From Mesorhizobium sp. NZP2298 (lineage in GTDB: Bacteria; Pseudomonadota; Alphaproteobacteria; Rhizobiales; Rhizobiaceae): a stretch of 64,000 nucleotides of DNA. The stretch covers positions 5,964,001-6,028,000 of the forward strand of contig NZ_CP033365.1 of the NCBI RefSeq assembly GCF_013170825.1, read 5' to 3'. Below, one piece after another: positions 15,676 through 41,440 of the stretch. The position numbers were made by a program, and so were the translations under genes. How positions within the stretch are numbered: the first letter of the stretch is position 1; the number at the start of each line of letters is the position of its first letter. The notes under the pieces are model-generated. The model made no database searches, had not been told where the DNA came from, and saw only the letters and a program-made list of their open reading frames with translations.

Positions 15676-16902
15676 ATGAGCCTCTTCGCCGCCCTCCGGC
15701 TTCCGCGTGAAATCCTTTTCGGCAAAGGCCAGCGTCATGCGCTGCCGACAGTCGCCAGCAGGTTCGGGCGGCGCGCGCTGGTCTGTACCGACGAGCGCTT
15801 CGCCGGCACGGCGGTGTTCGCGGAGGTCGTCAAATCGCTCCAGGACGCCTCAATAGAGGTGCTGGTGCATGACCGCGTCCTTCCCGACGTACCGCGTGAA
15901 ACAGTCAGCATCTGCGTCGACGAGGCGACAGGGTTCCGGCCCGAGATGGTGATCGGCATCGGCGGCGGCAGCTGCCTCGACTTTGCCAAATGCACCACCT
16001 TGCTGCTCAGCCATGGCGGCAAACTCCAGGACTACTATGGGGAGTTCAAGGTGCCCGGCCCCACGCTGCCGCTCATCGCCGTACCCACCACAGCGGGCAC
16101 TGGCTCCGAAGTGACGCCGGTCGCGGTGATCTCCGATCCTGATCGCACGCTCAAGGTCGGCATATCGAGCCCGTATCTGATCGCCGCGGTTGCCTTGTGC
16201 GATCCCGACCTGACGATGACCTGTCCGCCCGGGCTGACCGCGATCGCCGGCGCCGACGCATTGACACACGCAATCGAGGCTTTCACCGCCATGCGGCGCG
16301 GCGAGGATCCGGACCTGCCGCAAAAGCACGTGTTCATCGGCAAGACGGCGCTGACCGATCATTTCGCGCTGCTGGCCATAAAGCTGCTGGGTCGCAGTCT
16401 GCAGAAAGCCTGCACGGACGGCACCGATGCTGATGCGCGTGCCGATGTGATGATGGGCGCGTTGGCGGCAGGGTGTGCATTCGGTACCGCCGGAACGGCG
16501 GCGGCGCATGCCGTGCAATATCCCGCCGGGGCGCTCACACACACCGCGCACGGCTTGGGTGTGGCAACCATGATGCCCTACGTCATGACCTATAACAGGC
16601 GTGTGGCTGCCGCTGAAATGGCCGAGATCGGCCGCGCGCTCGGGCTCTCCCCAAATGGGCGCAGTGAAGACGAGCAGGCCGGCGCTGCCATAGAGGAGAT
16701 CAGGCGGCTGTTCGCAGCGATCGGCATTACCTCGACGCTGGCGGATCTTGGCCTACCCGCTGATAAGCTAGACTGGACCGCCGAGCAGGCGCTCGGCATC
16801 GACCGCCTCATCAAGAACAATCCGCGCCCATTCGATCTCGCCACCATGCGACGCCTGGTTCAGGCAGCCCACGACGGCGATCTCGCGGCCTGCGCCAATT
16901 GA
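15676..16902 (+). CDS. Iron-containing alcohol dehydrogenase
   Basis: 408-residue group III alcohol dehydrogenase, NAD(P)-dependent. Motifs: GIGGGSCLDFAK (NAD-binding), VPTTAGTGSEVTPVAV, and metal ligands in ADALTHAIEAF (Asp and His) plus His residues in AAHAVQ and THTAHG. The His that normally follows four residues after the third ligand is Tyr here (AVQYPAG), a subgroup feature. The next gene is a semialdehyde dehydrogenase. By analogy with the Agrobacterium attKLM/blc genes it could oxidise 4-hydroxybutyrate to succinate semialdehyde; this is inference. The ATG follows a purine-rich stretch at 15660-15670. Confidence 0.88.
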   Translation: MSLFAALRLPREILFGKGQRHALPTVASRFGRRALVCTDERFAGTAVFAEVVKSLQDASIEVLVHDRVLPDVPRETVSICVDEATGFRPEMVIGIGGGSCLDFAKCTTLLLSHGGKLQDYYGEFKVPGPTLPLIAVPTTAGTGSEVTPVAVISDPDRTLKVGISSPYLIAAVALCDPDLTMTCPPGLTAIAGADALTHAIEAFTAMRRGEDPDLPQKHVFIGKTALTDHFALLAIKLLGRSLQKACTDGTDADARADVMMGALAAGCAFGTAGTAAAHAVQYPAGALTHTAHGLGVATMMPYVMTYNRRVAAAEMAEIGRALGLSPNGRSEDEQAGAAIEEIRRLFAAIGITSTLADLGLPADKLDWTAEQALGIDRLIKNNPRPFDLATMRRLVQAAHDGDLAACAN

Positions 16903-16919
16903 ACGAACGGAACAAGACG

Positions 16920-18398
16920 ATGACCCTTGCCCAGCAAATCGACCAGGATGGCTACGACGTGCGCCGGTTTTCGCACGGGCTTTACATCGACGGCACGTGG
17001 CGCCCCTCTTCCGATGGCCGGCTCATCGATGTGGTCGATCCGTCCTCCGGGGCCGTGATCGCGGCGGTTCCCGATGCAACGCTCGAGGATGCCGCAACTG
17101 CCGTCGAGGCCGCAGCCAGGGCCGCCAAGGGATGGCGGGAGACAGCGCCGCGCAAGCGCTCGGAAATCCTTCGGCGATGTTTCGAACTCATGGTCGAACG
17201 TTCTGAAACGCTCGCCATGCTGATCTCGCTGGAGAACGGCAAGGCGTTGCGGGACGCGCGTGGCGAGGTGGCCTATGCGGCCGAGTTTTTTCGGTGGAAC
17301 GCCGAAGAGGCGGTCCGGATCACCGGCGAATTCGGCACCGCACCATCCGGCACCAACCGGATCGTGGTCGACTATGAGCCGATCGGGATCTGCGTGCTGA
17401 TCACGCCCTGGAATTTTCCCGCCGCGATGGCGACCCGCAAGATTGCACCGGCACTAGCGGCAGGTTGTACGGTCATCCTGAAACCCGCCAGCGAAACGCC
17501 ACTGACGGCCTACGCTTTGGCCGCACTCTACAGTGAGGCCGGGGTCCCGGCCGGCGTCGTCAACGTCCTCACCACGACCAGTCCTGGTCCGTTGACATCG
17601 GCCATGCTGGCCGATCCGCGTGTCAGGAAGCTCTCCTTCACCGGCTCAACCGGAGTCGGCCGAACCTTGCTCGGCGAGGCGGCCAAGCATGTCATCTCCT
17701 GTTCGATGGAACTCGGCGGCAATGCGCCCTTCGTCGTGTTCGACGATGCTGATCTTGATGCGGCGCTCGACGGTGCAATGATCGCCAAGATGCGCAATGC
17801 CGGCGAGGCATGCACCGCCGCCAACCGCCTCTATGTCCAGTCAGGCATCCACGAACGGTTCGCTGACGGGCTTTCCAAACGCATGGCGGCGCTCAAAGTG
17901 GGAGCGGGCACCAATGCCGATACCGAGTGCGGCCCTATGATCACAAAGAAGGCAGTGGACAAGATCAACCGTCTCGTCAAGGACGCGGTGGAGCGGGGAG
18001 CCACGGTGCTTTGCGGCGGCTCGATTTTGGACCGCGAAGGCTTTTTCTATCCGCCGACCGTACTCTCGGCGGTATCGCCAGAAGCCGACATGGCGCATGA
18101 GGAGATCTTCGGGCCGGTGGCGCCCATCACCATGTTCGAAACCGAGGCGCAGGCCATCGCGTACGCTAATGACACGGAATATGGCCTTGCAGCCTATATC
18201 TATACGCGCGATGTGGGACGTGGAATGCGTGTGGCGTCGGGTATCGAGGCCGGTATGATAGGGCTCAACCGCGGGCTGATGTCCGATCCAGCGGCGCCCT
18301 TCGGCGGCGTCAAGCAAAGCGGCCTTGGCCGCGAAGGCGGTCAGCACCACGGCATCGCCGAATTCATGGAGGCGAAATACATCGCCGTCACCTTCTGA
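16920..18398 (+). CDS. NAD(P)-dependent aldehyde dehydrogenase, succinate-semialdehyde type (GabD-like)
   Basis: 492-residue aldehyde dehydrogenase. Cofactor region [20 protein letters not shown], general-base Glu in [11 protein letters not shown], and nucleophile Cys in NAGEACTAANR are all present; C-terminal GGVKQSGLGREGG is typical. The ATG at 16920 is used; an in-frame TTG at 16899 overlaps the previous stop. It follows the alcohol dehydrogenase by 17 nt and precedes an esterase, so it probably completes oxidation of the aldehyde formed upstream to an acid such as succinate. Confidence 0.9.
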   Translation: MTLAQQIDQDGYDVRRFSHGLYIDGTWRPSSDGRLIDVVDPSSGAVIAAVPDATLEDAATAVEAAARAAKGWRETAPRKRSEILRRCFELMVERSETLAMLISLENGKALRDARGEVAYAAEFFRWNAEEAVRITGEFGTAPSGTNRIVVDYEPIGICVLITPWNFPAAMATRKIAPALAAGCTVILKPASETPLTAYALAALYSEAGVPAGVVNVLTTTSPGPLTSAMLADPRVRKLSFTGSTGVGRTLLGEAAKHVISCSMELGGNAPFVVFDDADLDAALDGAMIAKMRNAGEACTAANRLYVQSGIHERFADGLSKRMAALKVGAGTNADTECGPMITKKAVDKINRLVKDAVERGATVLCGGSILDREGFFYPPTVLSAVSPEADMAHEEIFGPVAPITMFETEAQAIAYANDTEYGLAAYIYTRDVGRGMRVASGIEAGMIGLNRGLMSDPAAPFGGVKQSGLGREGGQHHGIAEFMEAKYIAVTF

Positions 18399-19583: not shown

Positions 19584-21068
19584 TTAAGCGATACCGCCGA
19601 AGCAGAGATATTTGAGTTCCGTGAAGTCATCGAGGCCGTACTTCGAGCCTTCCCGCCCAAAGCCGGACTGCTTGATGCCGCCGAACGGCGCCACTTCCGT
19701 CGAAATCAGGCCAGTGTTGATGCCGACCATGCCGTACTCAAGGGCTTCGGCCACAGCCCAAACGCGCGACATATCCTTGGCGTAGAAATAGGCCGCCAGC
19801 CCAAACTCGGTGTCATTCGCCATGGCAATGACATCCTCGACGGCATCGAAACGGAACAGGGGTGCCAGGGGACCAAACGTTTCTTCACGGGCTACCGCCA
19901 TTTTGGCCGTCACGTCGGTCAGGACGGTCGGCCAGATGAAATTGCCCCCCAGGGGGTGGTCCGGGCCGCCAGCCACGATGCTGGCGCCATGAGCGACGGC
20001 GTTTTCGATGTGGCGCCTGACTTTGGCCACGGCGCGATCGTCGACCAAGGGACCGATCTCGGTGCCTTCCTCGAAGCCGTCGCCCACCTTGAAAGCTTTC
20101 ACACGACGGACAAGTTTTTCCGCAAACTCCTCGTAAATGCCGGTCTGCACGTATAGGCGGTTGGCGCAAACGCAGGTCTGTCCGGCATTTCGATACTTTG
20201 AGACTACGGCTCCCTCGACGGCAGCATCGATGTCGGCATCGTCGAACACGATAAACGGTGCGTTGCCGCCCAACTCCATGCTGAGCTTCATCACCTGCGC
20301 CGAAGCTTGCGCCATAAGTGTGCGGCCGACTTCAGTGGATCCGGTAAAGGTGAGTTTGCGTACCTTTTCGTTTTCGCAGACCTCATCACCGAAGTCCGAA
20401 CTCTTGGTGATCGGGACTACGCTCAGCAAACCGGCCGGAACCCCTGCCCTTTCCGCAAGCACGGCCAGTGCCAAGGCAGACAAAGGGGTCAGGGCTGCCG
20501 GTTTGAAGACCATCGAACAACCGACCGCCAAGGCCGGAGCGATCTTGCGCGCCACCATCGCCGAAGGAAAATTCCAAGGCGTCACGGCCCCGACGACGCC
20601 TACGGGTTGCTTGATTACGACGATCCGCTTGTCACGAGCATGCCCGGGGATGGTGTCACCATAGACGCGCTTGGCCTCCTCGCCGAACCATTCGATGTAG
20701 GACGCGCCGTAAAGGATTTCGCCTTTCGACTCTGCGAACGGCTTGCCCATCTCGGCGGTCAAGATGGTGGCTAGATCGTCCAGACTCGCGATTGTGAGAT
20801 CGTACCAGCGACGCAGAACGGCCGCGCGCTCTTTGCCCGTACGGGCAGCCCAGTCCTTCTGTGCGACATGAGCTGCGTCGATGGCTTTCGCGATTTCAGC
20901 TCGTGTGAAATCAGGCAATGTTGCCAGCACCTCGTTCGTTGACGGGTTGGTAACGTCGAAGGTTTGGCCGGACCGCGATCGACCGAGCCATTCGTTGCCG
21001 ATCAATCCCGCTTCGCGGACCAGGTCCCTATCCTTGATCTTGCTTAGGAGCGTCGCTGATACGGCCAT
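19584..21068 (-). CDS. gabD: NAD(P)-dependent succinate-semialdehyde dehydrogenase
   Basis: 494-residue aldehyde dehydrogenase close to GabD. Motifs include the cofactor segment [38 protein letters not shown] with the general-base Glu, and the nucleophile Cys in [18 protein letters not shown], the form seen in SSADH. The C-terminus has [16 protein letters not shown]. Two start codons are possible (21074 and 21068); the inner ATG has AAAGG at a better distance. It oxidises succinate semialdehyde to succinate. It stands alone, flanked upstream by broken gene ends, so its original partners seem to have been lost. It differs clearly from the dehydrogenase at 16920. Confidence 0.9.
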
Positions 21069-21111
21069 GACCATTCACCTTTACTGGATTGCTGGCGCCC
21101 GCGCTTAAACA

Positions 21112-22643: not shown

Positions 22644-24521
22644 CTACCTGCCCGTGACACGGTCAAGGAGCCGGGCAATCCACGGCGTCGTGGTTGGCTC
22701 AAACAGGGGGTTGACGTCAGGCACAAGGTTGATCTGGTGGCGCGGCAGTTGATCTATCACGGATAGCCGGCCCTGATAGGCTAGCCACCACACGATGAAG
22801 ACGCCGACGAACCAGAACAGGACCTGCCAGATTAGCAGCGATGGCACGCCCGGCGCCACGACAGTTCCGGCAAAAATTGGCTCGCTGAAGAACTTGTTGC
22901 CGAGGATCGCGCCGGGCCCGAGCGCGAAGAACGCCCAGAGCAGGGTCAGCGACCATTTCGCGGTCGTGGCCGCAGGGTTGCCATTGCGCGCCGGTTGGCT
23001 TTTTTCAAATGCATCGTGGAGGCGGTCCCTGCGATCTCTTTCAGCACCACTTCGCGTGAACAGAGAGACCAGGAGGCACGCCGCAAAATTCGGGATCAGC
23101 CCCCATCCGGCCGAATGCACCGATAGAGGCCAACGGCCCCACGGCAGGTCGATGAACAGTCGCTCGAACAGGGCCAAGCCAAAGCTCTCTGTAAACACCA
23201 CGAAGAGACCTCCGACAATTAGCCCCGTCAACACACCGCTACGGCTAATCCAACGCACCCAGCAAAGGCCTAATACTGCCGGCAGGAGCTGCACGGATAG
23301 ACTGAGCGTGAGAGACGAAAAGATCGTCGCGCCAAGCGGCGCATAACTCGCGGCGATGGCGACGGCGCCATAGACGAGGGCTAAGGTTACGCGTGCGGCA
23401 AACCGCGTCGTGCGTTGGTCCATGCCCGGAACAATGTAGCGGGAAGTGAGTTCGACCGTGCAAATGGAAGCACCCGATCCGGCGAAGAACGCCACGGCGA
23501 TTTGGGATGCCGCCACCAAAAGAACAATGAAGCCCACCGCCACCATCTGGTCGAGCGATGCCAGGCGCGCGGTGAAGGCGGTCAGGGACCCTCCTGCCGC
23601 GATCTCGCCCGCCAGGATCGGCCCTACCAATATCAGTGCACCGGCCGCGACCCCCGCGATCATCCAGACCTGGCCAAATGCAAAGCCGCGATGCGGCTTA
23701 CTTGTCATGCCGAGGAAGCTGAACCCGGGACTGATGGCGATGCCGCCCAAAGAGAGTGCGAACGTCAATCCCGCAAACGTCGTCCAGATGCCTCCGATCG
23801 GGAGTTCCTTGCCGATACCGGCCGTGAACTGGATCACTCCGGGGATCATGTCGGGCAGCACGCCCCCGGTTGTCGCAATGCCGCCAGCGGTAAAAGCGAG
23901 CTTGCCAACCGTGAAGCCCGTGAAACCGCCGAAGAACAGAAGGAGGGCCAGGACCAGCAAGGACTGGGCGGCAACGAAATAGGCGGTGCCGCGCCAGCCG
24001 CCGATCACGCTGCAAACGAAGAGTGCAAACGCAATCGCCCAGATTGCAAGCCCGGACGGGATGTCGCCCGCGGTTGAAGCGTCCACCAGTTCGCCCGCCT
24101 GAGACAGAGCCATCGCCGCGAACGGAATGGTGAAGAGAAACAACAAGACAAGCATGAAAATACGCAGGGTGGTGCTACCAAAATAATCGCCGAGCAGGTC
24201 ACCCAGGGTTCGCAACGAGGTTAGTCTCGAAGCGAGCCAAAGGCGCTTCTGCGTGAGGGCCGCAACGAGGGCAACACAGATGATCCCGACAGCAACCTGA
24301 TTGTATTGCAGGCCGAAGGTGGAGAGCAAAACCAGGTGGTCCGAAAGGCTAAGACTTGCCAAGGTAATGCCGGCACCAGCGAAGATGATCACCCAAGGCG
24401 GCAATGATTGACCGCCATCCACGAAGTCAGACGCCTGCTGGGTGTGACGGCCGCTGATGGTTGCAAGATAGAGACCGAAGACCGCAACGATGACGAGTAT
24501 GGAAACCAGCAGGGAGGTCAT
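22644..24521 (-). CDS. Sodium:solute symporter family transporter
   Basis: 625-residue polytopic protein with about 13-15 hydrophobic helices and SSF-like core features: a polar N-terminal segment after helix 1, ASLSLSDHLVLLSTFG, and GWRGTAYFVAAQSLLV in the helix-5 region. The C-terminal third carries extra helices. Its start overlaps the stop of the 154-residue membrane protein gene (ATGA, 24518-24521), so those two are translated together. It would move a small solute with Na+ or H+ across the inner membrane. Its presence in an operon that already encodes an ABC importer is unusual. Confidence 0.82.
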   Translation of the reverse strand: MTSLLVSILVIVAVFGLYLATISGRHTQQASDFVDGGQSLPPWVIIFAGAGITLASLSLSDHLVLLSTFGLQYNQVAVGIICVALVAALTQKRLWLASRLTSLRTLGDLLGDYFGSTTLRIFMLVLLFLFTIPFAAMALSQAGELVDASTAGDIPSGLAIWAIAFALFVCSVIGGWRGTAYFVAAQSLLVLALLLFFGGFTGFTVGKLAFTAGGIATTGGVLPDMIPGVIQFTAGIGKELPIGGIWTTFAGLTFALSLGGIAISPGFSFLGMTSKPHRGFAFGQVWMIAGVAAGALILVGPILAGEIAAGGSLTAFTARLASLDQMVAVGFIVLLVAASQIAVAFFAGSGASICTVELTSRYIVPGMDQRTTRFAARVTLALVYGAVAIAASYAPLGATIFSSLTLSLSVQLLPAVLGLCWVRWISRSGVLTGLIVGGLFVVFTESFGLALFERLFIDLPWGRWPLSVHSAGWGLIPNFAACLLVSLFTRSGAERDRRDRLHDAFEKSQPARNGNPAATTAKWSLTLLWAFFALGPGAILGNKFFSEPIFAGTVVAPGVPSLLIWQVLFWFVGVFIVWWLAYQGRLSVIDQLPRHQINLVPDVNPLFEPTTTPWIARLLDRVTGR

Positions 24522-24982
24522 TCGGAGCCTCCCGTCGAACGGGCTGGATCTCGGTCACCCGAACGGAAGTCGCGGATGGCGTCGAACCCTTCAAATGCCT
24601 GTCGCGCTCCATACCGGATGATCAGGTAGAAAATCACCACGGCCCCTGTGGTGATAAAGCCGACGCTGAGCGGCATGAAGTTATGCGCGGCCAATGGCGC
24701 CCCAACGAGCGACAGAGCCACGAAAAGGACGAGGCCGAATCCATAGATGATGAGGCCAAGTCCCAATTCGCGGGGCGAGAACCCTGTGCCGTAAACAGCA
24801 TTTACGATCACATGCGCCACAAATCCCGCCAGAATAATCGCGAACCCGGAGAGGAGATAAGGCGCCCCGCCTTGGCCGAATCCGTAGTCAAACAAGAATG
24901 CGGCCGGCAGGGCCGCTGCCAACCAGCACGCCATAACCAGGGCGTGGCGGTCTAGCGTTTCATTTGGGCCGAGCGGGGTCAT
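24518..24982 (-). CDS. Small four-helix membrane protein paired with the symporter
   Basis: 154-residue protein with four hydrophobic segments (about residues 16-32, 42-64, 74-95 and 103-123) and a charged C-terminal tail. The 4-nt overlap with the symporter gene argues for a small accessory subunit, comparable in arrangement, though not in recognisable sequence, to small subunits found with some SSF carriers. No known family was recognised. It follows the flotillin-like gene by 28 nt. Confidence 0.7.
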   Translation of the reverse strand: MTPLGPNETLDRHALVMACWLAAALPAAFLFDYGFGQGGAPYLLSGFAIILAGFVAHVIVNAVYGTGFSPRELGLGLIIYGFGLVLFVALSLVGAPLAAHNFMPLSVGFITTGAVVIFYLIIRYGARQAFEGFDAIRDFRSGDRDPARSTGGSE

Positions 24983-27265: not shown

Positions 27266-27955
27266 TCAGAAACGTTCCTCGCCGGCGACGGCAAGTACGA
27301 TCATTGAGACGGCGATGAGATTGATAAGGTCAGCGACAGTGTAGAGCACGATGATCGGCGCCACATGTCCCGTGCCGATAACGACATCCACGAAATGCAA
27401 GATCGGGTAGATCGCCCAACCGATGGTCAGGATCAGCCTGATCCAGAAATAACCGAGCCGGATTGGCCGCGTCGACTTGCTGACGGCATCCGCCATCGCG
27501 CCGAAATACATCTCGCCGAGAATGTAGAGCCAGAAGGCGATCGACAGCAGCACGCCAAGGGTTGGATTGAAAATCCGTGCGTCGCCAAGGTACCTTGCGA
27601 GAACCATCAGGATTGCAGCTGCCAGTGTCCGCCAGAAGACACCGACGGGCACTTTTCCCGCGATACTCGCAAAGAAGAACACCGACGCCACCTGCATCGG
27701 TTGAACCACAAACCACGCAACATAGCGCGAAGCCGCACTGAGCTGCTGGCCCGTCAGCCAAATGTTCGATGCAGCGTAGTATTCAATACCCGATGCGAGA
27801 AGCGCGACGCCTGACAGGGCCAGCGGAACCCGCCACCGCTCGGACGTCCACGTCAGGCCCAGCATCGCCAGGGCAGCGGTTGCAAACGTGGCAAGGGTGG
27901 CAACGCTGAGCGCGGTGCTCACAACGGCGCTGGACTGAAAGAGTGTTCCAAACAT
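27266..27955 (-). CDS. Proteorhodopsin-like seven-helix protein lacking the retinal lysine
   Basis: 229 residues, seven hydrophobic helices. Alignment by eye to proteorhodopsin (PR) runs the whole length: helix C RYVAW...P (residues 77-86) matches PR RYIDW...P; RYLGDAR (121-127) matches GYMGEAG; helix F GWAIYP (179-184) is identical; helix G LYTVADLIN (204-212) matches IYNLADFVN. The Schiff-base lysine of helix G is Leu213 (codon CTC at 27317-27319, three changes away from AAG). The proton acceptor Asp97 is Ala80, Thr101 is Val84, the donor Glu108 is Ser91 and PR His75 is Glu58, whereas Arg77, Trp180, Tyr183, Pro184 and Asp209 are kept. It therefore cannot form the usual covalent retinal pigment or pump protons in the PR way. 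An AGGG lies upstream, overlapping the permease stop, 9 nt away. Confidence 0.85.
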   Translation of the reverse strand: MFGTLFQSSAVVSTALSVATLATFATAALAMLGLTWTSERWRVPLALSGVALLASGIEYYAASNIWLTGQQLSAASRYVAWFVVQPMQVASVFFFASIAGKVPVGVFWRTLAAAILMVLARYLGDARIFNPTLGVLLSIAFWLYILGEMYFGAMADAVSKSTRPIRLGYFWIRLILTIGWAIYPILHFVDVVIGTGHVAPIIVLYTVADLINLIAVSMIVLAVAGEERF

Positions 27956-27964
27956 GGGTTTTCC

Positions 27965-29365
27965 CTAAACTTGGGCTCTGATGTCTGGGGCGCGGCCGTA
28001 GAGCGCGACCATCGGCAGGATCAGAAGACCGAAAATGAACTGTTGCCATTCGTATTTGAGCCCGATGCCGATCAGGAAGGCACTCAGGACTTGCAGGACG
28101 AGAACCCCGATCACTGTGTAGCCGTAGCCGCCGTAACCCCCCATAAGCGAGGTTCCGCCGATCACCACCGCAGCCAGGGTTGTGAAAAGATACTGGTCGC
28201 CGACCCCGATGAATCCGCCGCCGCTCCATCCCAGCAGCAGGCATCCTGTCAGGGCGGCCGAGAAGCCGCTTATGGTGTAGGCCACGGTCCAGTATTTGAA
28301 CTCGGAGACACCGATGAGCTTGGCGGAACGGCGATTACCGCCAAGAGCATAAATATACCTGCCAAAGGCGGAATACCGCAGCCCGACAATGACGATAATC
28401 GCAATGACGATCCACAGGAGGATTGTCGGCGGAACGGCTAAACCGAAGGTACGACCGTTCATGGCAGCGAGGTTCTGGAGCCATTTGGGCACTGTCCCAA
28501 AAACATTGCCGCCAAATGACGATCCGATGCTGGTGAGGATCTGGACTAGCCCTGCAATCGCAAAGCCCATGCCGAGCGTCAGGATCAAAGCTTGGCCCTG
28601 CAGTCTGTATGACAGGACGCCGTTGAGGAAACCCAGAGTGGCGCCGATGATCAGCACAAAGACGACTGCCAGCCACGATGGCACGCCGAGCCCGATCAGG
28701 AAGAGCAGCCCGATATTCGAAGACCCGATGACAAATGGGATCGACAGGTCCAAGCCGCCCAGCAGCGCCACCAGCGTTTGGCCAACACAGGCGATACCCA
28801 GGAAAGCGGCAAACAGCAGGATTGCCTTGATATTGGGGGCGGAGAGAAACCCGTTGATCGTGAAGGAGCTGATCACAATCAGCGCCAGCAGGACAATCAG
28901 CCCGATAAACGCGCTCCGGCCGTGAGCGAAACGGTTGCTGACCTTGAACGCGAAGACCAGGATCGCTTCCAGCAGCAGGAAGGCGATCAGGTTGCCAAGG
29001 CTTCTGAAGGACGGGACCGTAGCGGTAATCAGCAGGTACACAATCAGCATCACCGACATGGTGACGATCAGAACCCGGTTACCGGCCCAGACGCCGCCGG
29101 CAGCGGCGGGCGCGCTCCCAGAGTCCAGTGACGAAGGCCGCGGCTCAAATATGACCGCTATGTAGTTGATCAGCCAGAAAAGCACAGCGGCCAGCACGAC
29201 CGTGTAGAGAATGACAATTTGGGCGCTGATTCCCTGCCAGAATCCCAAGCCAAAGCTGATCGCGGCAACTACGAACGTGACCGCCAGGTTAAGCCACACC
29301 AGAGCGCGTGATCGCGGAACAAATAGGCCGCCACTGCGGCTGCCGTCGCCAAACGTCTGGGTCAT
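27965..29365 (-). CDS. CUT2-type ABC permease with extra N-terminal membrane region
   Basis: 466 residues, about 120-140 longer than a usual RbsC-type permease. The first ~165 residues hold about four additional hydrophobic helices and a Ser/Ala/Gly-rich loop. The remaining part is a normal BPD_transp_2 domain with ALLGGLDLSIPF (in place of TGGIDLSVGS), NRRSAKLIGV and the late VVIGGTSLMGG segment. It overlaps the other permease gene by ATGA (29362-29365) and is followed 9 nt later by the rhodopsin-like gene. The two permeases probably form a heterodimer. Confidence 0.87.
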   Translation of the reverse strand: MTQTFGDGSRSGGLFVPRSRALVWLNLAVTFVVAAISFGLGFWQGISAQIVILYTVVLAAVLFWLINYIAVIFEPRPSSLDSGSAPAAAGGVWAGNRVLIVTMSVMLIVYLLITATVPSFRSLGNLIAFLLLEAILVFAFKVSNRFAHGRSAFIGLIVLLALIVISSFTINGFLSAPNIKAILLFAAFLGIACVGQTLVALLGGLDLSIPFVIGSSNIGLLFLIGLGVPSWLAVVFVLIIGATLGFLNGVLSYRLQGQALILTLGMGFAIAGLVQILTSIGSSFGGNVFGTVPKWLQNLAAMNGRTFGLAVPPTILLWIVIAIIVIVGLRYSAFGRYIYALGGNRRSAKLIGVSEFKYWTVAYTISGFSAALTGCLLLGWSGGGFIGVGDQYLFTTLAAVVIGGTSLMGGYGGYGYTVIGVLVLQVLSAFLIGIGLKYEWQQFIFGLLILPMVALYGRAPDIRAQV

Positions 29366-30764: not shown

Positions 30765-31721
30765 CTAGAACTCAATGACCTTCCGGCCCTCGTTGGGCCG
30801 CTCGTTGCGAGACGATGACCGGCTTTCGGAAATGCTCCGCCCCGACAGGGCATTGCTGCCTTGACCGCGCCTTTCCGGATCCGCATTGAGGATTTTCTTC
30901 AGCACGGGAGAGATGACCTCCTTGAATTTCGCCGGGTCTTCCGACGTCGGGAAGTGACCGCCGCCAAAGATGATGCACTCGGAATTCTTGACCTTTTCGG
31001 CGGTACGCTGGGTCATTTCCGGCGTACAGGCGAAATCGTACTCGCCAGTCAGGAAGTAGATTGGCACCTTCCCCGAGATTTTCTGGCACTGGTCGCGGAA
31101 ATCCGAATCGACGCTGTAGAAATAGAGGTCGCCCTTGAAAATGCCCGGGCCGCCCTGCGCGTAGTACCACCAGGTCTCCCACCGGTAATCGTCGGGAGAG
31201 AGCGGCGCCATCAGACCGAACACCGAGGTCGCGACCACTTCGCCACCATGGATGTGGGGGTGATGCAGCGGATCGATCCACCATCCCGGCGAATAGTCGC
31301 AGGCTTCAAGAGCGATGAAGGCAGAAAACTCGCTTTCATAGCGCAGTGCCAGTGCCAGGCAGATGTTGCCCCCCATTGACTGGCCCATCAGGACCGGTTT
31401 GCGCAGATCCAGCGCCCGGCAGAAGGCCACGATGAACTCACAATAGAATTTGGTCGTGAGTTTGTATTCGTCTTCCATCAGATGGAAGTCTGCCGGCGGG
31501 ATCGATTTTCCATGCCAAGGCATGTCGAAGGCGATGACACGGAAATTCTGGCTGATATCGGGATCGCACAGCTGATGCCGGTACTGGCGCCCGTCAGTGC
31601 CGGCGGTATGCAGGCAGACCATCGGAATGCCTTCGCCGTGTTCCTCGTAGTACGTGCGATACGTTTTGCCTTCGCACTGGACATAAACGTAACGCCCGAC
31701 AATCGGATCGTGTGTATTCAT
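30765..31721 (-). CDS. Alpha/beta hydrolase
   Basis: 318-residue alpha/beta-fold hydrolase. An HTAGTDGRQYRH oxyanion region, nucleophile elbow MGQSMGGNIC, Asp in TGEYDFACTP and His in FGGGHFPTSED form a plausible Ser-Asp-His triad. The last ~40 residues are polar, Arg/Ser-rich and probably disordered. It lies between the SCP2-like gene (21-nt gap) and the permease genes (23-nt gap), so it probably acts in the cytoplasm on the imported compound, for example hydrolysing an ester. Substrate unknown. Confidence 0.88.
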   Translation of the reverse strand: MNTHDPIVGRYVYVQCEGKTYRTYYEEHGEGIPMVCLHTAGTDGRQYRHQLCDPDISQNFRVIAFDMPWHGKSIPPADFHLMEDEYKLTTKFYCEFIVAFCRALDLRKPVLMGQSMGGNICLALALRYESEFSAFIALEACDYSPGWWIDPLHHPHIHGGEVVATSVFGLMAPLSPDDYRWETWWYYAQGGPGIFKGDLYFYSVDSDFRDQCQKISGKVPIYFLTGEYDFACTPEMTQRTAEKVKNSECIIFGGGHFPTSEDPAKFKEVISPVLKKILNADPERRGQGSNALSGRSISESRSSSRNERPNEGRKVIEF

Positions 31722-31742: not shown

Positions 31743-32147
31743 TTAAACTTGTCGCATCAGCGAGAGCATACGCGTCAGCGCCCGCAGATTCTGCCAGAAG
31801 GGGAGCGAATTGCCCTCAATAATCAGCTGCTTGTGCAGCGGATGCGCCATCGCCCAGATGTCGTTGAACATCGGCGGCGGGATTTCCTGGGCAAACTTCG
31901 ACCAAGCGCTGCTCGGAGCCTTGAGCCAAAACTCCACGCCCATATCATTGGGGGTGAGACCCTGTGCAATCTTCTGAATTTTGCCCCCCCGAACATCCAC
32001 CAGATACTCGGTGTCATCGAAACCCAGGACGAATTTGCTCGTAAAAAAACGGCCGACAACCGGCAAGATACGATCATCGTTGACCTTCCTGGCCCATCGC
32101 TCGATCCATTCCAGATCAAAGCTGCTCCTGCTTCCATATCTACTCAT
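31743..32147 (-). CDS. Small SCP2-like protein
   Basis: 134-residue soluble protein. The ATG at 32147 follows GGAGGATCAT, an excellent ribosome-binding site, and removes a long non-coding-like N-terminal extension. The middle reads FDDTEYLVDVRGGKIQKIAQ, then VEFWLKAPSSAWSKFAQ. This strand-turn-strand-helix pattern resembles SCP2 sterol-carrier domains, which bind lipids in a hydrophobic tunnel. The match is by pattern only. It sits between the ATPase-PEBP gene (35-nt gap) and a hydrolase gene (21-nt gap). Confidence 0.6.
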   Translation of the reverse strand: MSRYGSRSSFDLEWIERWARKVNDDRILPVVGRFFTSKFVLGFDDTEYLVDVRGGKIQKIAQGLTPNDMGVEFWLKAPSSAWSKFAQEIPPPMFNDIWAMAHPLHKQLIIEGNSLPFWQNLRALTRMLSLMRQV

Positions 32148-32182: not shown

Positions 32183-32710
32183 CTAACCGGGCAATGACTT
32201 CTTTGCGGGCCCGTAAACTGCCACGAACGACGCCGCATCGATCGCAACCGGCATCACTGCAGCCGCGAATACCGCGAAATCGGCTTCGGCCGGCAACTCG
32301 ACCTTGTCCACCTTCAGCGCATAGAGCGTGAAGAAATACCGGTGCGCTCGATCCGGCGGCCAAGGTCCGCCGTATCCCTTGCCAAATCCCGGGATCCTGA
32401 ACGTCACGAAGTCGCTGTTGAACTCGACAGCGCCGTGCGGCATTCCCAAGCTCCCGCTCGCCCCTTCCGGCAGTTCCCTAAGTTCCGCCGGAATGTTTGC
32501 CACCAGCCAGTGTGCAAACGAGCGGGGAAAATTAAATGCTTCTGGCAGATCAGGATCGGTGATGGCCAACGCGAAGCTGCGCGTGCCTTCTGGAGGACCT
32601 GACCAAACCAACCTGGGCGAGAGGCGGTTGTCTTCGGCGAACCGGTCGGGGATAACGCGCCCCGGCGCAATATCCGGACAACTCAGTACGAAAGATGGTG
32701 TTGCCGCCAT
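32183..32710 (-). CDS. PEBP/YbhB-like protein from internal start (alternative product of the fusion frame)
   Basis: 175 residues beginning MAATPSFVLSC, the natural N-terminus of YbhB-like proteins. The start is supported by the Shine-Dalgarno at 32717-32724. YbhB/YbcL proteins belong to the PEBP superfamily, whose eukaryotic members bind phospholipid head groups and which here keeps the DPD and HW ligand-pocket motifs. Whether the cell makes the free protein, the fusion or both cannot be told from sequence. No signal peptide is seen in either form, so it would be cytoplasmic. Confidence 0.6.
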   Translation of the reverse strand: MAATPSFVLSCPDIAPGRVIPDRFAEDNRLSPRLVWSGPPEGTRSFALAITDPDLPEAFNFPRSFAHWLVANIPAELRELPEGASGSLGMPHGAVEFNSDFVTFRIPGFGKGYGGPWPPDRAHRYFFTLYALKVDKVELPAEADFAVFAAAVMPVAIDAASFVAVYGPAKKSLPG

Positions 32711-34360
32711 ATGGTTCACCTCCTGGTTCAGCAGGGTCACAGACCTCGGCACCGGCCGGCCCTGCTCAAGTCTCGGACTGTGGCTATCTGCGACCGGCAT
32801 CGGACTGTCCGGATCATTCTCGTTGGCGGCCTCCCCGGGCAACCGCGCCGTTGCGCGGCGACCGAACATGGCGTTGAGGATGACATGTCCGTCGAACGGC
32901 GGCTCAAAATCAGCCGAAATCGCGCCATTGCGAAACACGTGAACCCGCGTGCACAGGTTCAGGAATTCTTCGAGCTCGCTGGATAGGAACACCACCGCGT
33001 TGCCGCGGGCCGCGAATTCCTTGAGGTTGCGGTAGAGGTCCAGCTTGGCCCCGACGTCGATGCCGCGGGCCGGATCGTTGAGCACCAAAACCACCGGCTT
33101 TTCGGCAAAGGCCCTGGCAATCAGCACCTTCTGCTGGTTGCCGCCTGACAGCGATGTGATCAGGTTCTGGGGGCTCCCCATCTTGACGGCCAGTTTGCTG
33201 GACTCCCACTCGAAAACCGGCGTCAGCTTGGTCCGGTTGATGAAGTTCAGCACACCGCCGGATCGGAACTCGCGATACACTGGGAGCAGCAGATTTTCGT
33301 ATATGCTCAGATTGGCAAAGATGCCTTCTTTCTTGCGATCGCCGCTCACGTAGCTGATGTTGTTTCGTCGCGCCGATGCAAGATCAGTAACCTCGCTGGC
33401 CTTGCCGTCACTAACCACCACCAGCCGGCCGGCAATCGGAGACTGGATGCCGGCGATGCACCTTACGAAGTCCGCCTGCCCTTGCCCGTCCAGGCCGGTG
33501 ATCCCGATGACCTCGCCAGGGTACACCGCGAAATTGACAGCCGCAGCGTCTGACCAGACCCGAAGATCAGTCGCGCGCAGGACCGGTCGGTCGCCAAGAC
33601 GCGTCGGCAAAGGCTGATCACGGCTGGTCCCGCTGCGCTCGGCGCCGGCAATGAGCTCGAGAATCCTGGACTCGGTGATCTCCTCTTTAGCCAGCTTGCC
33701 GACATCCACGCCGTCGCGCAGGACCGTCGCGCGGTCTGCAATACGCACCAGCTCGGCGATACGGTGGGTGACGATCAGAATGCTCGCCCCCCTTTGCTTC
33801 AACTGCCGCATCTTACGGAACAGCCTCTCCGTGGAATCAAAGTCGAGCGCGGCAGACGACTCATCGAGGATCAGGACCTTTGGATCGGTAAGGAGAGCCC
33901 TGGCGATCGTGACCCACTGTTTGACGCTCAGGGGCAGCTCGCCCACGAGGCCGGAGAGGTCGATGTCGAAACCGAGGAGCTCGCGCATCAGCGCGGCTGC
34001 CTTGGCTTCCTTTTCCTCCCGGTTCATGGATGAACCCAGCAGGCTGTCCGCCCCTAGGTAAAGGTTGTCCAGCACCGAGCACTCATCTGCAACAAGCACC
34101 TCCTGAAAAACATTGGAGATGCCCAGCTGGCGCGCTTCGTGTGGAGACGTTGCCGACTTTCCCAGGATTGAGACCTGTCCGCTGTCCGGAATCAGAACGC
34201 CCGAAATAACCTTCGCGAGCGTGCTTTTGCCCGAGCCATTACCACCAATGATCGCGTGAACCTCGCCCGCATAGGCCGTCAGGTTGCACCCGCCGAGCGC
34301 TACCGTCGGCCCGAAGGTCTTCCTGACCGATGAGAGTTCAACCGTGGGGTACGACATCAT
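32183..34360 (-). CDS. CUT2-type ABC ATPase (two NBDs) fused in frame to a PEBP/YbhB domain
   Basis: 725 residues from the ATG at 34360. NBD1 has Walker A GGNGSGKST and Walker B LILDESSAALD; NBD2 has signature LSGGNQQK but an altered Walker B, LVLNDPARGID, where the family normally has DEPTRGID. The RbsA-like part ends near residue 500. A ~45-residue polar linker leads, without a stop, into a complete phosphatidylethanolamine-binding-protein fold (YbhB/YbcL type) with DNRLSPRLVWSGPP, LAITDPDLP, SFAHWLVANIP and GYGGPWPPDRAHRY. A perfect ribosome-binding site and ATG occur inside the frame at 32710, so the PEBP part can also be made separately. It follows the binding protein by 94 nt. Confidence 0.85.
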   Translation of the reverse strand: MMSYPTVELSSVRKTFGPTVALGGCNLTAYAGEVHAIIGGNGSGKSTLAKVISGVLIPDSGQVSILGKSATSPHEARQLGISNVFQEVLVADECSVLDNLYLGADSLLGSSMNREEKEAKAAALMRELLGFDIDLSGLVGELPLSVKQWVTIARALLTDPKVLILDESSAALDFDSTERLFRKMRQLKQRGASILIVTHRIAELVRIADRATVLRDGVDVGKLAKEEITESRILELIAGAERSGTSRDQPLPTRLGDRPVLRATDLRVWSDAAAVNFAVYPGEVIGITGLDGQGQADFVRCIAGIQSPIAGRLVVVSDGKASEVTDLASARRNNISYVSGDRKKEGIFANLSIYENLLLPVYREFRSGGVLNFINRTKLTPVFEWESSKLAVKMGSPQNLITSLSGGNQQKVLIARAFAEKPVVLVLNDPARGIDVGAKLDLYRNLKEFAARGNAVVFLSSELEEFLNLCTRVHVFRNGAISADFEPPFDGHVILNAMFGRRATARLPGEAANENDPDSPMPVADSHSPRLEQGRPVPRSVTLLNQEVNHMAATPSFVLSCPDIAPGRVIPDRFAEDNRLSPRLVWSGPPEGTRSFALAITDPDLPEAFNFPRSFAHWLVANIPAELRELPEGASGSLGMPHGAVEFNSDFVTFRIPGFGKGYGGPWPPDRAHRYFFTLYALKVDKVELPAEADFAVFAAAVMPVAIDAASFVAVYGPAKKSLPG
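32708..32724 (-). promoter_or_regulatory. Strong internal ribosome-binding site ahead of the PEBP domain
   Basis: On the minus strand AGGAGGTG (32717-32724) lies 6 nt before an ATG (32708-32710), inside the open frame of the ABC ATPase. This is the best Shine-Dalgarno of the operon and decides the start of the free PEBP protein. Confidence 0.75.
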
Positions 34361-34412
34361 AGGTCCAGTTGGCCGACGTTGGTCGGCTAGACTTGCATGG
34401 AATGAAGGAAAT

Positions 34413-34440
34413 GCCACCCCGTCGGCGTCGAAGGGGTGGC
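34413..34440 (-). promoter_or_regulatory. Intercistronic stem-loop after binding-protein gene
   Basis: GCCACCCC at 34413-34420 pairs perfectly with GGGGTGGC at 34433-34440 (8 bp, 12-nt loop). It begins 14 nt after the binding-protein stop and before the ATPase-PEBP gene. No T-run; probably stabilises the binding-protein message. Confidence 0.65.
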
Positions 34441-34454: not shown

Positions 34455-35633
34455 TCACTGCGCCTTGAAGGTCTCGGGATCAGCCGGGCGCAGGAAAAAC
34501 TGGTCCAGGTAATCCTTGCTTGCCCAGTTCTCGGCGCCGACGTTGTACCAGCCGTCAGAGTCTTCGCTGCAGTCGGCCGGGACGGCCTTTTCGAGCTGCT
34601 CGTAAGTGAGCGTCTGCGGCTTCGTGAGGATGGACTGGACCTTCGGCCCCTGTCCCTGAAGAGTGCGCATCATGATGTTCCATGCGAACTCGAAATCATC
34701 ACCTGGGGGCCATGCCTGGACCGCTTGGCTGACGAAATCCTTGTTGTTGCGCCAATAGCAAAGCGCACCGATTTCGCCGCCGATCGAGAACGGCACCATG
34801 TCGCGTCCACTCTGTTGCAGAGCGCGCAAGGCACCCAGCTCAGACGCCGACTGGATGATGATGCCGTTCAGATCGCCCGGATTGGTGGCCAGCCATTTCT
34901 GGATCTCGGACTGGGCAACCTGGTCGGTCCACATGCCGGCGACTTGACCCACCACCTTGATGTCAGGGTATTTCGCCAGAGCCTTCAGCACGCCAACGTT
35001 CTGGGAATCCGATGCCGAAGCGCCGGGAATGCCTTCCACAACAAGGACGTTGCCCTTGCCATTGATCTGCTTGGCCATCCATTCGCCGAGCATGCTGCCA
35101 CCCACCACGAAATTCGCGGAGGCGTTCACAGCATATGGAGATGTCAGGTACCCGGTGGCCGAAAACACCGGTATGTCACGCTGGTGAGCGTATTCAACGG
35201 TCTGGTTCAGCGAGGTCGGATTGGAGCAGCAGACGATGATTGCGTCGACGCCCTGGTCGACAAGCTGCCGCATCTGCTGGATCTGCGTGGAGTCGTTCAG
35301 GTTCGACTGGGTAATGATCACGTCCTTGACGAGGCCGAGCTTCTTCCATTTCGGAATGAGCTCCTCCTGCAGACGTTTCATCACATCAGCGCGCCACGTA
35401 TTGCCCGCATATGAGCTCGCATAGCCGATCGTCCACGGCGGACCCTTCTTTGGCTTCCAGTCGCGATACGCACTCTCCGCGAGCGGCTGCATCGGATCCA
35501 TCATGTCCTTGTTGTAAAGTTCGTCCTGGATGTTCTTGGGCAGCTCATCCACGCCACCGGCAAATGCCGGACTGAAGCTGGCGATCGTTGCGACAACGGC
35601 AAGCGATCGCAACATGGTTGCGAATGTCGTCAA
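34455..35633 (-). CDS. CUT2-type ABC transporter substrate-binding protein, first gene of the rhodopsin-like operon
   Basis: 392 residues. A TTG at 35633 is chosen as start because GGGAGG lies 5 nt upstream; the next ATG (35615) is too far from it. Signal peptide with hydrophobic core SLAVVATIASFSP, cleaved near AFA-GG. Peripla_BP_4 features are IGYASSYAGNTWRADV, VDAIIVCCSNPTSLNQ, and IIIQSASELGALRAL. It is longer than usual sugar-binding proteins (about 300-330) with N- and C-terminal extensions and five Cys in the mature part. The ligand is not known; the operon context suggests a hydrophobic or ester compound rather than a simple sugar. Confidence 0.88.
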   Translation of the reverse strand: MTTFATMLRSLAVVATIASFSPAFAGGVDELPKNIQDELYNKDMMDPMQPLAESAYRDWKPKKGPPWTIGYASSYAGNTWRADVMKRLQEELIPKWKKLGLVKDVIITQSNLNDSTQIQQMRQLVDQGVDAIIVCCSNPTSLNQTVEYAHQRDIPVFSATGYLTSPYAVNASANFVVGGSMLGEWMAKQINGKGNVLVVEGIPGASASDSQNVGVLKALAKYPDIKVVGQVAGMWTDQVAQSEIQKWLATNPGDLNGIIIQSASELGALRALQQSGRDMVPFSIGGEIGALCYWRNNKDFVSQAVQAWPPGDDFEFAWNIMMRTLQGQGPKVQSILTKPQTLTYEQLEKAVPADCSEDSDGWYNVGAENWASKDYLDQFFLRPADPETFKAQ

Positions 35634-35864
35634 TTTTTCCTCCCTTAGTGCCGGGCGTTGAGCCGTGTGCACGCTGAGTTCAGTGGAACCCGCGAGGGAC
35701 TATCGGGCAATCAGGACCTTGGAGGTAATACATTTTTCAAATGCGCTCTATACGCTTTCGCTATGGAGATCTCTCGGCTGAGGGTCCAAAACCGAAGCTA
35801 TGGGAGTTTCCCAAGGATTGATGTGCTTTGGGGAGGAAGTAGCCAGTCAGCTCTTGAGCGATAG
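35634..35864. promoter_or_regulatory. Presumed promoter region of the 11-gene operon
   Basis: The 230 bp upstream of the binding-protein gene contain an AT-richer patch (35728-35765) and no coding sequence. The promoter of the minus-strand operon must lie here if the operon is one unit, but no convincing -35/-10 pair or LysR-type T-N11-A site could be singled out. Confidence 0.35.
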
Positions 35865-36260
35865 AACAGATCCCCCAGGCTCGTGTCGGTCGTGATCGAT
35901 GATGCTCTCGACGCCATAACCCTGAACGGTGATCCCGACGATCTCAAACTCGTGCTTCGCAACCTGAATGAAAACGCGCTCGAGCATTTGGCGAGTGCGG
36001 GGCGCATTACGTGGTACGCGCTGCCTGACCGAAATGGCGTGGCGATCTCCGATGAGGGGCCAGGCGTGGATGACGATGAGCTGCCACGCATCATCGAGCG
36101 GTTCTATCGAGGGCGCAACAGAAGCGCTTCCGGCACCGGGCTTGGCCTTACGATCGCAACAATGGCGGCGGCGCGACTGGGAGCGGTCCTCAGTTTCCGG
36201 AATCGATCCGACCGGCAGGGGCTGATAGCCGAGTTACAATGGCGCACGACTTCCCGCTGA
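35865..36260 (+). pseudogene. Sensor histidine kinase fragment (HATPase domain only)
   Basis: An open frame of about 130 residues encodes only a GHKL ATPase domain: N-box LVLRNLNENALEH, G1 SDEGPGVDDDE, F-box RIIERFYRG, G2 SASGTGLGLTIATMAA. A stop lies immediately upstream and there is no sensor, HAMP or His-containing dimerisation region. A GTG at 35883 could start translation, but this looks like the 3' remainder of a QseC/EnvZ-like kinase. Confidence 0.75.
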
Positions 36261-38411: not shown

Positions 38412-39914
38412 CTATGGCAGCCGGATCGCGACGGTCTTGGTCTCGGTGTAAAGCTGGAGCGCCTGTTCGCCAAGTTCTCGCCCCCAGCCCGATTGCTTGA
38501 AACCGCCGAAGGGCATGGTGACGTCGTTGAAGTTATGGCAGTTCACCCAGACCGTGCCGGATTTGATCTTCGCGGCCAGCCGATGCGCGGCGCCCAGATT
38601 GTTGGTCCAGATCGATGCAGCAAGGCCATACTCGGTGTCGTTGGCATCCTTGGCGAGTTTGTCCAGGTCCTCGTCGTCGAACGGCATCGCGCAGGCCACC
38701 GGCCCGAATATCTCTTCGCGGATCACCGACATGTCCGGCCGCGTGCGGGAAATGACCGTCGGCTTGACGAAATAGCCGGTGTCACCGGCCCGTGTGCCAC
38801 CGGTGACGATCTCGGCGCCATCGCTCCTGCCTTCCGAGATCAGCCGGGTGATGCGTTCCATCTGCTGCTGAGAGACGACGGGACCAAGCTCCGTCGCAGG
38901 ATCAAGCCCGGCGCCGAGCTTCAGCTTTTCGGCGCGCGCCGCGATCCCGGACATGACCTTGTCATAGATCTTCTTGTGAACGAAGAAACGCGTTCCCGCG
39001 CCGCAGCTCTGCCCGGCATTGAAGAATGCCGCGCTCGAGGCGCCCGCCACCGCCATGTCGATATCGGCGTCGCCCAGCACGATGGTCGGCGCCTTGCCGC
39101 CAAGTTCCAGGCTGACCTTCTTGAGATTGCCGGTCGCGGCGCGGGCAATCAGCCTGCCAACTTCGGTCGAACCGGTGAATGCCACCTTGTCGATGTCGGG
39201 ATGGGCAGACATCGCCGCACCGACGGTTTCGCCAAAACCGGTCAGGATGTTGACCACGCCTTCCGGAAAGCCGGCGTCCTGGACCAGCTTGCCGAAATAA
39301 AGCGCGCCGAGCGGCGTCTGCTCGGCTGGTTTGAGCACGATCGTGCAGCCGGCCGCCAGTGCCGGTGCCACCTTCCAGGCAAGCATGCTGAGCGGGAAGT
39401 TCCACGGGATGATCTGGCCGACGACGCCGACCGGCTCGCGGCGGGTGTAGGCATGCCAGTCGCCGGGCGCGTTGATCGTCATCGTCTCGCCATTGATCTT
39501 CGTGGCCCACCCCGCATAGTAGCGGAACGTCTCTGCCGTGAACGGCACTTCGCCTTTGCGGGAATCGCCAATCGGCTTGCCGCTCTCATAGGAATTGAGC
39601 GTCGCCAGCATATCGACATTAGCATCGATCAGATCGGCGAGTCTCCAGATCAGCCTGGCGCGCTCGGCCGGCACCATTTTCGACCATGGACCATCGATCG
39701 CCTTGCGCGCGGCCTTGACCGCCAGATCCACATCGGCGCTGTCGCCGGCCGGCACGGCGGCAATGATCCGGCCGTCCGAAGGATCGACCACTTCCAACGT
39801 CTTTCCCGAGGCCGCCGGTAGCCACGCATTGCCGATAAGCATCGCATGGCTGCCGCCGACGAACGCCGCCACCTTGGGATCGAGTGGCGGCACGGCATCG
39901 AAACGTATGGTCAT
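38412..39914 (-). CDS. Aldehyde dehydrogenase family protein
   Basis: 500 residues. The ATG at 39914 follows GGGAGGAAACC and leaves a normal ALDH length. Cofactor segment IIPWNFPLSMLAWKVAPALA, general-base Glu in SLELGGKAPTIV, nucleophile Cys in NAGQSCGAGTRFFV, and the C-terminal FGGFKQSGWGRELGEQ are present. It resembles the ALDH1/ALDH2-like group that oxidises diverse aldehydes with NAD+. It is 26 nt downstream of a second, different ALDH gene, so the pathway may produce two aldehydes. Confidence 0.92.
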   Translation of the reverse strand: MTIRFDAVPPLDPKVAAFVGGSHAMLIGNAWLPAASGKTLEVVDPSDGRIIAAVPAGDSADVDLAVKAARKAIDGPWSKMVPAERARLIWRLADLIDANVDMLATLNSYESGKPIGDSRKGEVPFTAETFRYYAGWATKINGETMTINAPGDWHAYTRREPVGVVGQIIPWNFPLSMLAWKVAPALAAGCTIVLKPAEQTPLGALYFGKLVQDAGFPEGVVNILTGFGETVGAAMSAHPDIDKVAFTGSTEVGRLIARAATGNLKKVSLELGGKAPTIVLGDADIDMAVAGASSAAFFNAGQSCGAGTRFFVHKKIYDKVMSGIAARAEKLKLGAGLDPATELGPVVSQQQMERITRLISEGRSDGAEIVTGGTRAGDTGYFVKPTVISRTRPDMSVIREEIFGPVACAMPFDDEDLDKLAKDANDTEYGLAASIWTNNLGAAHRLAAKIKSGTVWVNCHNFNDVTMPFGGFKQSGWGRELGEQALQLYTETKTVAIRLP

Positions 39915-39940
39915 GGTTTCCTCCCGAAGCATCTGGTCGA

Positions 39941-41436
<1,496 letters not shown>

Positions 41437-41440
<4 letters not shown>

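Follow-up and report, generated by a model that had tools for sequence, protein, structure and literature searches.

A lysine-less flotillin-associated rhodopsin within an ABC-importer operon of Mesorhizobium sp. NZP2298 and its possible role as an importer subunit

Flotillin-associated rhodopsins (FArhodopsins, FARs) were named by Haro-Moreno et al. (2023, PMC10308929). According to the main text of that paper, most freshwater FArhodopsins lack the retinal-binding lysine and have glutamine, threonine, leucine or arginine in its place, and these lysine-less members always occur with flotillin where the contigs are long enough. A sterol-carrier protein, an inner-membrane translocator, a sodium symporter and alpha/beta hydrolases are given as further parts of the FAR cluster. 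The authors hypothesized that marine FARs help the proteorhodopsin proton pump in dim light; they could not tell whether lysine-less FArhodopsins coexist with a pump, because the freshwater forms came from contigs only, with no single-cell genomes or isolates for the lysine-less ones. The main text mentions translocators and membrane transporters and never ABC, permease, soil or lactonase, while the cluster genes are listed in its Table S2. Our literature search returned no paper joining Mesorhizobium, rhodopsin and flotillin and none naming PsFAR; besides PMC10308929, the paper naming FArhodopsin has flotillin only in its references.

The window, a stretch of 64,000 nucleotides from Mesorhizobium sp. 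NZP2298 (contig NZ_CP033365.1, positions 5,964,001 to 6,028,000), contains such a gene (Table 1). A preliminary description had taken its product for a proteorhodopsin-related seven-helix protein stripped of the retinal lysine and the pump residues, and both points were confirmed. The fold check gave a type-1 rhodopsin fold with seven helices. The Schiff-base lysine in helix G, the mark of a functional retinal protein, is replaced by Leu213, and the counter-ion and proton-donor sites hold Ala80 and Ser91, so that Ala80-Val84-Ser91 stands where marine FArhodopsins have DTT, DTL or DNI. The protein also has Arg121, a glycine in proteorhodopsin, and Trp171, and it retains Arg77 and Asp209. In the PDB its sequence matches the PsFAR structures 9r21 (111 bits) and 9r23 (109 bits), followed by PsPR (76 bits) and other proteorhodopsins at 69 bits and below. 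Gly147 is shared with all 240 listed lysine-less homologues and all 120 listed PsFAR relatives, against Trp or Tyr in two proteorhodopsin-type proteins; tree support for all FARs together is only 84, with an outgroup of two rows. With PsFAR as the nearest PDB entry and a flotillin gene directly downstream on the same strand, the locus has the FArhodopsin arrangement of PMC10308929. The SCP-like protein, the inner-membrane translocator and the sodium symporter of the FAR cluster are present too, the SCP2 and SSF profile matches coming from relatives and not from the window copies. Comparison at the sequence level thus places the window protein firmly in an already published family, and the earlier suggestion that lysine-less rhodopsins had not been seen in this operon setting has to be withdrawn, since PMC10308929 already had lysine-less freshwater members beside flotillin.

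The gene was also described as intact, and this holds. The frame of 229 residues shows a dN/dS of 0.02-0.05 against five close Mesorhizobium copies and many invariant residues in an alignment of 28 proteins. Among the homologues listed, the closest is 97% identical and comes from Mesorhizobium sp. STM 4661; no NCBIfam model matches the protein. A decaying gene without function, which the lost pump residues could bring to mind, is rejected by the dN/dS values and the invariant residues and has practically no chance of being correct.

Table 1. Genes of the FAR operon and neighbouring enzyme genes, with positions in the window
Feature	Position	Strand	Basis and remarks
Iron-containing alcohol dehydrogenase and SSADH-like aldehyde dehydrogenase pair, outside the fixed operon	15676..18398	+	Family matches
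Succinate-semialdehyde dehydrogenase (SSADH), outside the fixed operon	19584..21074	-	TIGR01780, 688 bits (cut-off 646)
Divergent sodium:solute-symporter-family protein, 625 aa	22644..24521	-	SSF PF00474 in relatives
Small membrane protein, four hydrophobic segments, no family	24518..24982	-	Pfam, hydropathy
Flotillin, SPFH/Band_7 + Flot, 736 aa	25011..27221	-	Pfam; start may be ATG at 27206
Lysine-less flotillin-associated rhodopsin (FAR), 229 aa	27266..27955	-	Sequence, structure and alignment comparison
PermB, ABC importer permease, BPD_transp_2 at residues 179-450	27965..29365	-	Pfam, comparison with sister permeases
PermA, second ABC importer permease, BPD_transp_2 at 47-309, C-terminal extension of ~145 aa	29362..30741	-	Pfam, length comparison
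Alpha/beta hydrolase	30765..31721	-	Best NCBIfam a lactonase (3-oxoadipate enol-lactonase), far below cut-off
SCP2-like (sterol-carrier-protein-like) small protein	31743..32147	-	ATG after AGGAGG; weak SCP2 match, relatives only
ABC ATPase, two ABC domains, sugar-importer type, with C-terminal phosphatidylethanolamine-binding-protein (PEBP) domain	32183..34417	-	Pfam/NCBIfam
Periplasmic substrate-binding protein, Peripla_BP_4	34455..35672	-	Pfam/NCBIfam

Gaps of only 9 and 44 nt flank FAR and suggest that FAR and flotillin may be co-transcribed. Promoter-like sites were fewer than in shuffled sequences (2 vs 4.6), and terminator-like sites were in excess (27 vs 13.4) but scattered inside genes, so the scan neither supports nor breaks the idea of a single transcript. 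Several of the operon proteins are divergent. PF02036 (SCP2) was matched by 4 of 18 members of the SCP2-like family (best E 0.013), and a PDB profile search gave no SCP2 match for the window member. PF00474 (SSF) matched 5 of 17 aligned relatives of the symporter-like protein (best E 6.8e-23) and not the window copy; PDB sequence searches found no meaningful match for this protein and none for flotillin. NCBIfam holds no matching model for the small membrane, symporter-like or SCP-like protein, and flotillin scores far below the FloT cut-off (34 bits vs 700). A second flotillin, with a Flot domain of 126 bits, lies away from the FAR operon (G000:C1:5660278-5660625), so this genome departs from the remark in the main text of PMC10308929 that flotillin occurs only once, in the FAR cluster.

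Loss of the retinal site was followed in 240 homologues, two sets of 120 that are the best of 404 relatives and the best of 855 found with a distant profile, and in 38 genome loci in named records that overlap with them. Site 213 is Leu in 122 of the listed homologues, Gln in 76, Arg in 36, Glu in 3, and Val, Ile and Thr in one each; the 38 loci have Leu (29), Gln (5), Thr (3) and Arg (1). Lysine occurs in neither set, and a local mutation as the cause of its loss is therefore rejected. Among PsFAR relatives (best 120 of 1926), 118 keep it. Site 121 is Arg in all 240 listed lysine-less homologues, compared with Glu (104), Gln (9), Gly (5), Lys (1) and Asn (1) in the best 120 PsFAR relatives and Gly in two aligned proteorhodopsin-type proteins. 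The Lys-bearing FARs of L077 and L078, the two aligned, have Ala here, and 9r23 is PsFAR changed by its depositors at this very site (E120G) together with H84. In bacteriorhodopsin we take this site to face the ring end of retinal, and the uniform arginine makes it probable that Arg121 fills this end of the former retinal site. The preliminary description had listed Arg77, Trp180, Tyr183, Pro184 and Asp209 as a surviving pocket. These residues are indeed present, with Trp180, Pro184 and Asp209 kept across homologues and Tyr183 in most of them, but with the arginine at 121 the description is only half correct, since the ring end of the pocket is probably occupied.

The expectation that lysine-less copies form a conserved clade was met by a 75-row maximum-likelihood tree, built without the columns of the lysine site, 121 and 171, in which 62 lysine-less and 13 Lys-bearing rows stand apart with support of 100/99. 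Loss of lysine, Arg121 and Trp171 each required one change on the same branch of this tree, whose outgroup PsPR is a long branch according to a program warning; a quick tree of 102 rows agrees on the lysine loss. Judged from these alignments and trees, the retinal site was lost long ago, and the loss is common to the lysine-less FARs, not local. A possible compensatory exchange between positions 77 and 213 was considered as well: 33 of 36 Arg213 proteins lack Arg77, and 201 of 204 others keep it. As this pattern lies mostly in one clade and an independent-pairs test had 2 usable pairs, it is suggestive, was rejected as a general rule and is not used as proof. His77 together with Arg213 is also found in two plasmid FAR operons, those of Pararhizobium gei (L087; plasmid predicted conjugative) and Martelella sp. 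AD-3 (L088).

The source genome is a single contig of 7,336,816 bases and 100% complete. A search with the rhodopsin family profile returned the window FAR as its one PF01036 match, so the protein is recognized by the family model, and the proteorhodopsin paralogue that accompanies marine forms was not found among rhodopsins other than heliorhodopsins. Neither Blh nor an RPE65-type oxygenase was found in the genome, the latter by a search that gave matches in 2 of 14 control genomes. PF01036 was matched at E 0.001 or better in 36 of 38 relatives, with a second rhodopsin only in G166; the FARs of the remaining two (G163, G164) are too divergent for the model. Blh was matched in 6 of 40 genomes, over the cut-off in 4, and all three genomes with a second rhodopsin (G166, G442, G520) carry it, which indicates that the search works. 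Three others (G171, G172, G178) have Blh and no rhodopsin seen other than FAR, so retinal may be made there, an observation that counts against a retinal-independent reading. Absence of a second rhodopsin or Blh weighs little in the many relatives that are drafts.

These searches bear on two light-dependent explanations. The published proposal that FARs assist a proton pump in dim light (PMC10308929, main text) agrees with two marine-type genomes, G442 and G520, in which a Lys-bearing FAR, a second rhodopsin and Blh occur together, and with the lysine-less relative G166, which likewise has a second rhodopsin and Blh. However, the idea finds no pump in the source genome, where both the second PF01036 match and Blh are missing; 37 of 38 relatives, many of them drafts, show no second rhodopsin, and the Lys-FAR genomes G368, G462 and G540 have neither. 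For the window FAR it is extremely unlikely. Non-covalent binding of retinal or a carotenoid for light sensing would fit the conserved Trp180, Pro184 and Asp209 and the mostly conserved Tyr183, and scavenging could replace synthesis. The missing lysine and counter-ion, Arg at 121 and the lack of any Blh or RPE65-type match in the genome leave this explanation very improbable. A light-independent role, as already supposed in the preliminary description, is judged likely. Separately, the Lys-bearing FARs of L077-L079 (G368, G462, G540) come from 4-Mb genomes in which no other rhodopsin or Blh was found; given the Ala at site 121 of the two aligned, they might bind scavenged retinal.

The genes around FArhodopsins point to a concrete partner. 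We compared 43 loci, 38 with lysine-less FARs and five with Lys-bearing FARs (L075-L079, two families). PermB lies directly before FAR and flotillin directly after it in 42 of 42 loci with room on the respective side, Lys-bearing loci included and one locus being cut in each case, which answers the earlier call to look for the same neighbours in relatives. Over the 43 loci, the symporter (SSS) was counted in 41, PermA in 40, the ATPase in 39 (including the different, 32%-identical ATPase of L010), the SCP-like protein and the hydrolase in 38 each, and the binding protein and the small membrane protein in 36 each. Missing genes correspond to cut contigs, except for the small membrane protein in the five Lys-bearing loci and L038; in L038 it was found in one search and not in another because E-values depend on database size. 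Leu-type operons that are long enough follow the order binding protein, ATPase, SCP-like, hydrolase, PermA, PermB, FAR, flotillin, small membrane protein, symporter, apart from L026 with its binding protein on the opposite strand, and in non-Leu types the SCP-like and hydrolase genes are elsewhere in the cluster. Alignments to the window ATPase extend through its fused PEBP domain in most Leu-type operons of full length, with L019 as an exception, and end before this domain, near residue 520-556, in Gln/Arg/Lys-type operons.

As a control, other rhodopsin loci, assumed to be proteorhodopsins, were inspected over 1.5 kb or as far as the contig reached, and 20 of 20 had neither PermB nor flotillin there. 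Over 36 loci, the pairwise distances of FAR, PermB, PermA and flotillin correlate at 0.94-0.97 (FAR-PermB r 0.97, FAR-flotillin 0.95; 0 of 500 permutations as high), although correlated distances would also be expected from shared descent of a block. Gene order is evidence of co-selection, not of contact.

Related importers that lack FAR provide a comparison. In the genus, FAR is carried by 8 of 146 genomes, the source genome included, and a long PermB (at least 91% identity) occurs in exactly these 8. Five other genomes of the genus have a PermB homologue of 51-56% identity and no FAR, and these homologues lack the first 106-150 residues of the query (about 141-149 in a second comparison). 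Among 385 genomes of the class, a close PermB was found in 7, with FAR in 6 of these; the seventh (G430) is cut at that side. The PermB searches scored the best-ranked candidates per genome, 11 for the genus and 4 for the class. Six FAR-less operons consist of binding protein, ATPase, PermA and PermB, one of them cut, and the stretches fetched (ending at PermB in L085 and running 3 kb past in L083) contained no FAR or flotillin match. Their PermA is 324-327 aa in 6/6 and their PermB 339-344 aa in 5/6, with the L085 frame running to 719, and they lack the N-terminal extension of ~140 aa present in the window PermB. With FAR, PermA reaches 440-560 aa (lysine-less) or 757-797 aa (Lys-bearing) and PermB mostly 455-489 aa; all lengths are longest ATG frames, of which a few are inflated upstream and one is cut. 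Hydropathy suggests that each permease extension would add about four membrane segments. FAR-bearing and FAR-less permeases separate into two clades with an SH-aLRT of 99, the FAR-less one having long branches, so the long permeases and FAR may reflect one old event. In the Lys-bearing operons L075-L079, with PermA of 757-797 aa, a scan of one copy (L077) gave no Pfam match for the PermA extension of >400 residues. The window itself holds another importer built in the same general way, with a binding protein, an ATPase and two permeases (42252-48844), and located beside a GMC oxidoreductase.

Gene order, co-inheritance and permease length, all read from sequence, point to an importer-subunit function. 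With a probability of about 0.5, FAR is a retinal- and light-independent seven-helix membrane subunit that ties the permeases of the ABC importer to a flotillin scaffold. FAR would act as an adaptor that touches the extra membrane segments of PermA and PermB and holds the extended permeases in a flotillin domain. Within the protein, Arg121 would fill the ring end of the old retinal site, and the kept Arg77-Asp209 pair may brace helices C and G together. A broader version is more tentative, and we hold it to be possible without expecting it. Here the opsin would have become an obligate importer subunit when FAR, flotillin and both permease extensions arose as one package; the retinal site would then have been destroyed later in a single step while the package still worked, and partnership with the importer would be what all FARs primarily serve, retinal being optional in the Lys-bearing ones.

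The main rival is a role in lipids, since opsins are reported to scramble phospholipids without retinal (PMC12805836, in the part available to us). FAR would then be a retinal-independent phospholipid scramblase or lipid organiser that gives the flotillin domain a special lipid surface, with the SCP2-like and PEBP parts handling lipids. Flotillin, the weakly matched SCP2-like protein and the PEBP domain on the ATPase are lipid-linked operon parts in keeping with such a role. Yet scrambling is a general opsin property that would need no fixed place between permease and flotillin, and the PEBP fusion was seen only in Leu-type operons, which makes this reading doubtful.

Another possibility is that FAR serves as a sensor or gate, binding a ligand other than retinal, such as a fatty acid or lactone, in the remnant retinal site and reporting it to the importer. 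Precedents, as far as the parts of the papers seen by us go, are the retinal-free proteo-opsin 8cnk with decanoate in its retinal pocket (PMC11322631) and the haloarchaeal lysine-less opsins proposed as non-light sensors (PMC4915679). Lactone-type enzymes lie near some FARs, and on the opposite strand, immediately ahead of the operon, a 125-aa ORF (35883-36260, +) encodes a histidine-kinase-type ATPase domain (PF02518), possibly as a kinase fragment. However, the decanoate is held by the same lysine that the window FAR has lost, Arg121 probably takes up its ring end in the old pocket, and the ten operon genes gave no HAMP/MCP transducer or kinase family match in Pfam. A sensor or gate is thus unlikely, and the special case of a chemosensor with its transducer inside the operon was rejected for want of such a match among the ten genes, although the kinase-type domain lies just outside. 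A non-covalent hydrophobic ligand in FAR is possible, but we prefer a structural role within the importer module.

The neighbouring genes also offer a lead to the substrate of the importer. The SSADH and iron alcohol dehydrogenase of the window are within 12 kb of FAR. In the BlcABC (AttKLM) pathway, gamma-butyrolactone is converted to 4-hydroxybutyrate, succinic semialdehyde and then succinate, as stated in the part of PMC3907764 consulted. AttM homologues of 60% identity or more are near 7 of 46 FAR loci and scored above the NCBIfam cut-off in the three FAR loci tested; within the window, 45 kb were examined and no attM of this identity was found. Among six plasmid records with FAR homologues, the two examined, Pararhizobium gei and Martelella sp. 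AD-3, both have attM upstream and an iron alcohol dehydrogenase downstream, and the Martelella plasmid also has a succinate-semialdehyde dehydrogenase. Beside PermB in the FAR-less sister operon L080 lies a copy of the window SSADH with 60% identity. Perhaps the substrate is 4-hydroxybutyrate or a lactone-type compound. With less confidence than for the adaptor role, the importer may bring in 4-hydroxybutyrate or such a lactone, which the neighbouring enzymes would turn into succinate.

Further features of the window are two more aldehyde dehydrogenases (38412-41686), genes for hydantoinase/oxoprolinase A and B with an FAD-dependent oxidoreductase after them (4155-8068), and an open frame of 2203 residues (57263-63874) for which Pfam gave no match at E 1e-5.

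The permease-FAR-flotillin order is common to lysine-less and Lys-bearing FARs. If an importer partnership is indeed the core of the family, retinal would be an optional add-on in the Lys-bearing members. A lysine-less FAR is now placed in a single-contig Mesorhizobium genome with no other rhodopsin or retinal-forming enzyme found, and because no pump was found in the background, the role of FAR can be tested there by gene deletion. In the literature searched we found no mention of the ABC-importer module, of a single loss coupled to Arg121, of a FAR genome in one contig with no further rhodopsin found, or of FAR-less sister importers.

Compared with the systems described, so far as the portions of the cited papers that we used go, the window FAR shares the fold, the adjacent flotillin and the cluster parts of FArhodopsins, of which Leu-type lysine-less freshwater members were already reported (PMC10308929). 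Marine FArhodopsins keep the lysine and the aspartate and live with a proteorhodopsin, whereas the window FAR lacks lysine, aspartate and donor, has Arg121 and resides in a single-contig genome that shows no other rhodopsin. Rh-noK (Yamauchi 2019, as described in PMC10308929) is similarly a lysine-less type-1 opsin; it is xanthorhodopsin-related, comes from betaproteobacteria and stands in tandem with a functional rhodopsin gene, unlike the window FAR, which has no such tandem partner and belongs to a different operon. The retinal-free proteo-opsin 8cnk binds decanoate through the lysine that is absent here (PMC11322631). In haloarchaeal opsin-related proteins (Becker et al., 2016, PMC4915679), the lysine is replaced by arginine or a hydrophobic residue and a non-light role has likewise been proposed. 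Many of these proteins adjoin HAMP/MCP transducers, while the partners of the window FAR are an ABC importer and flotillin.
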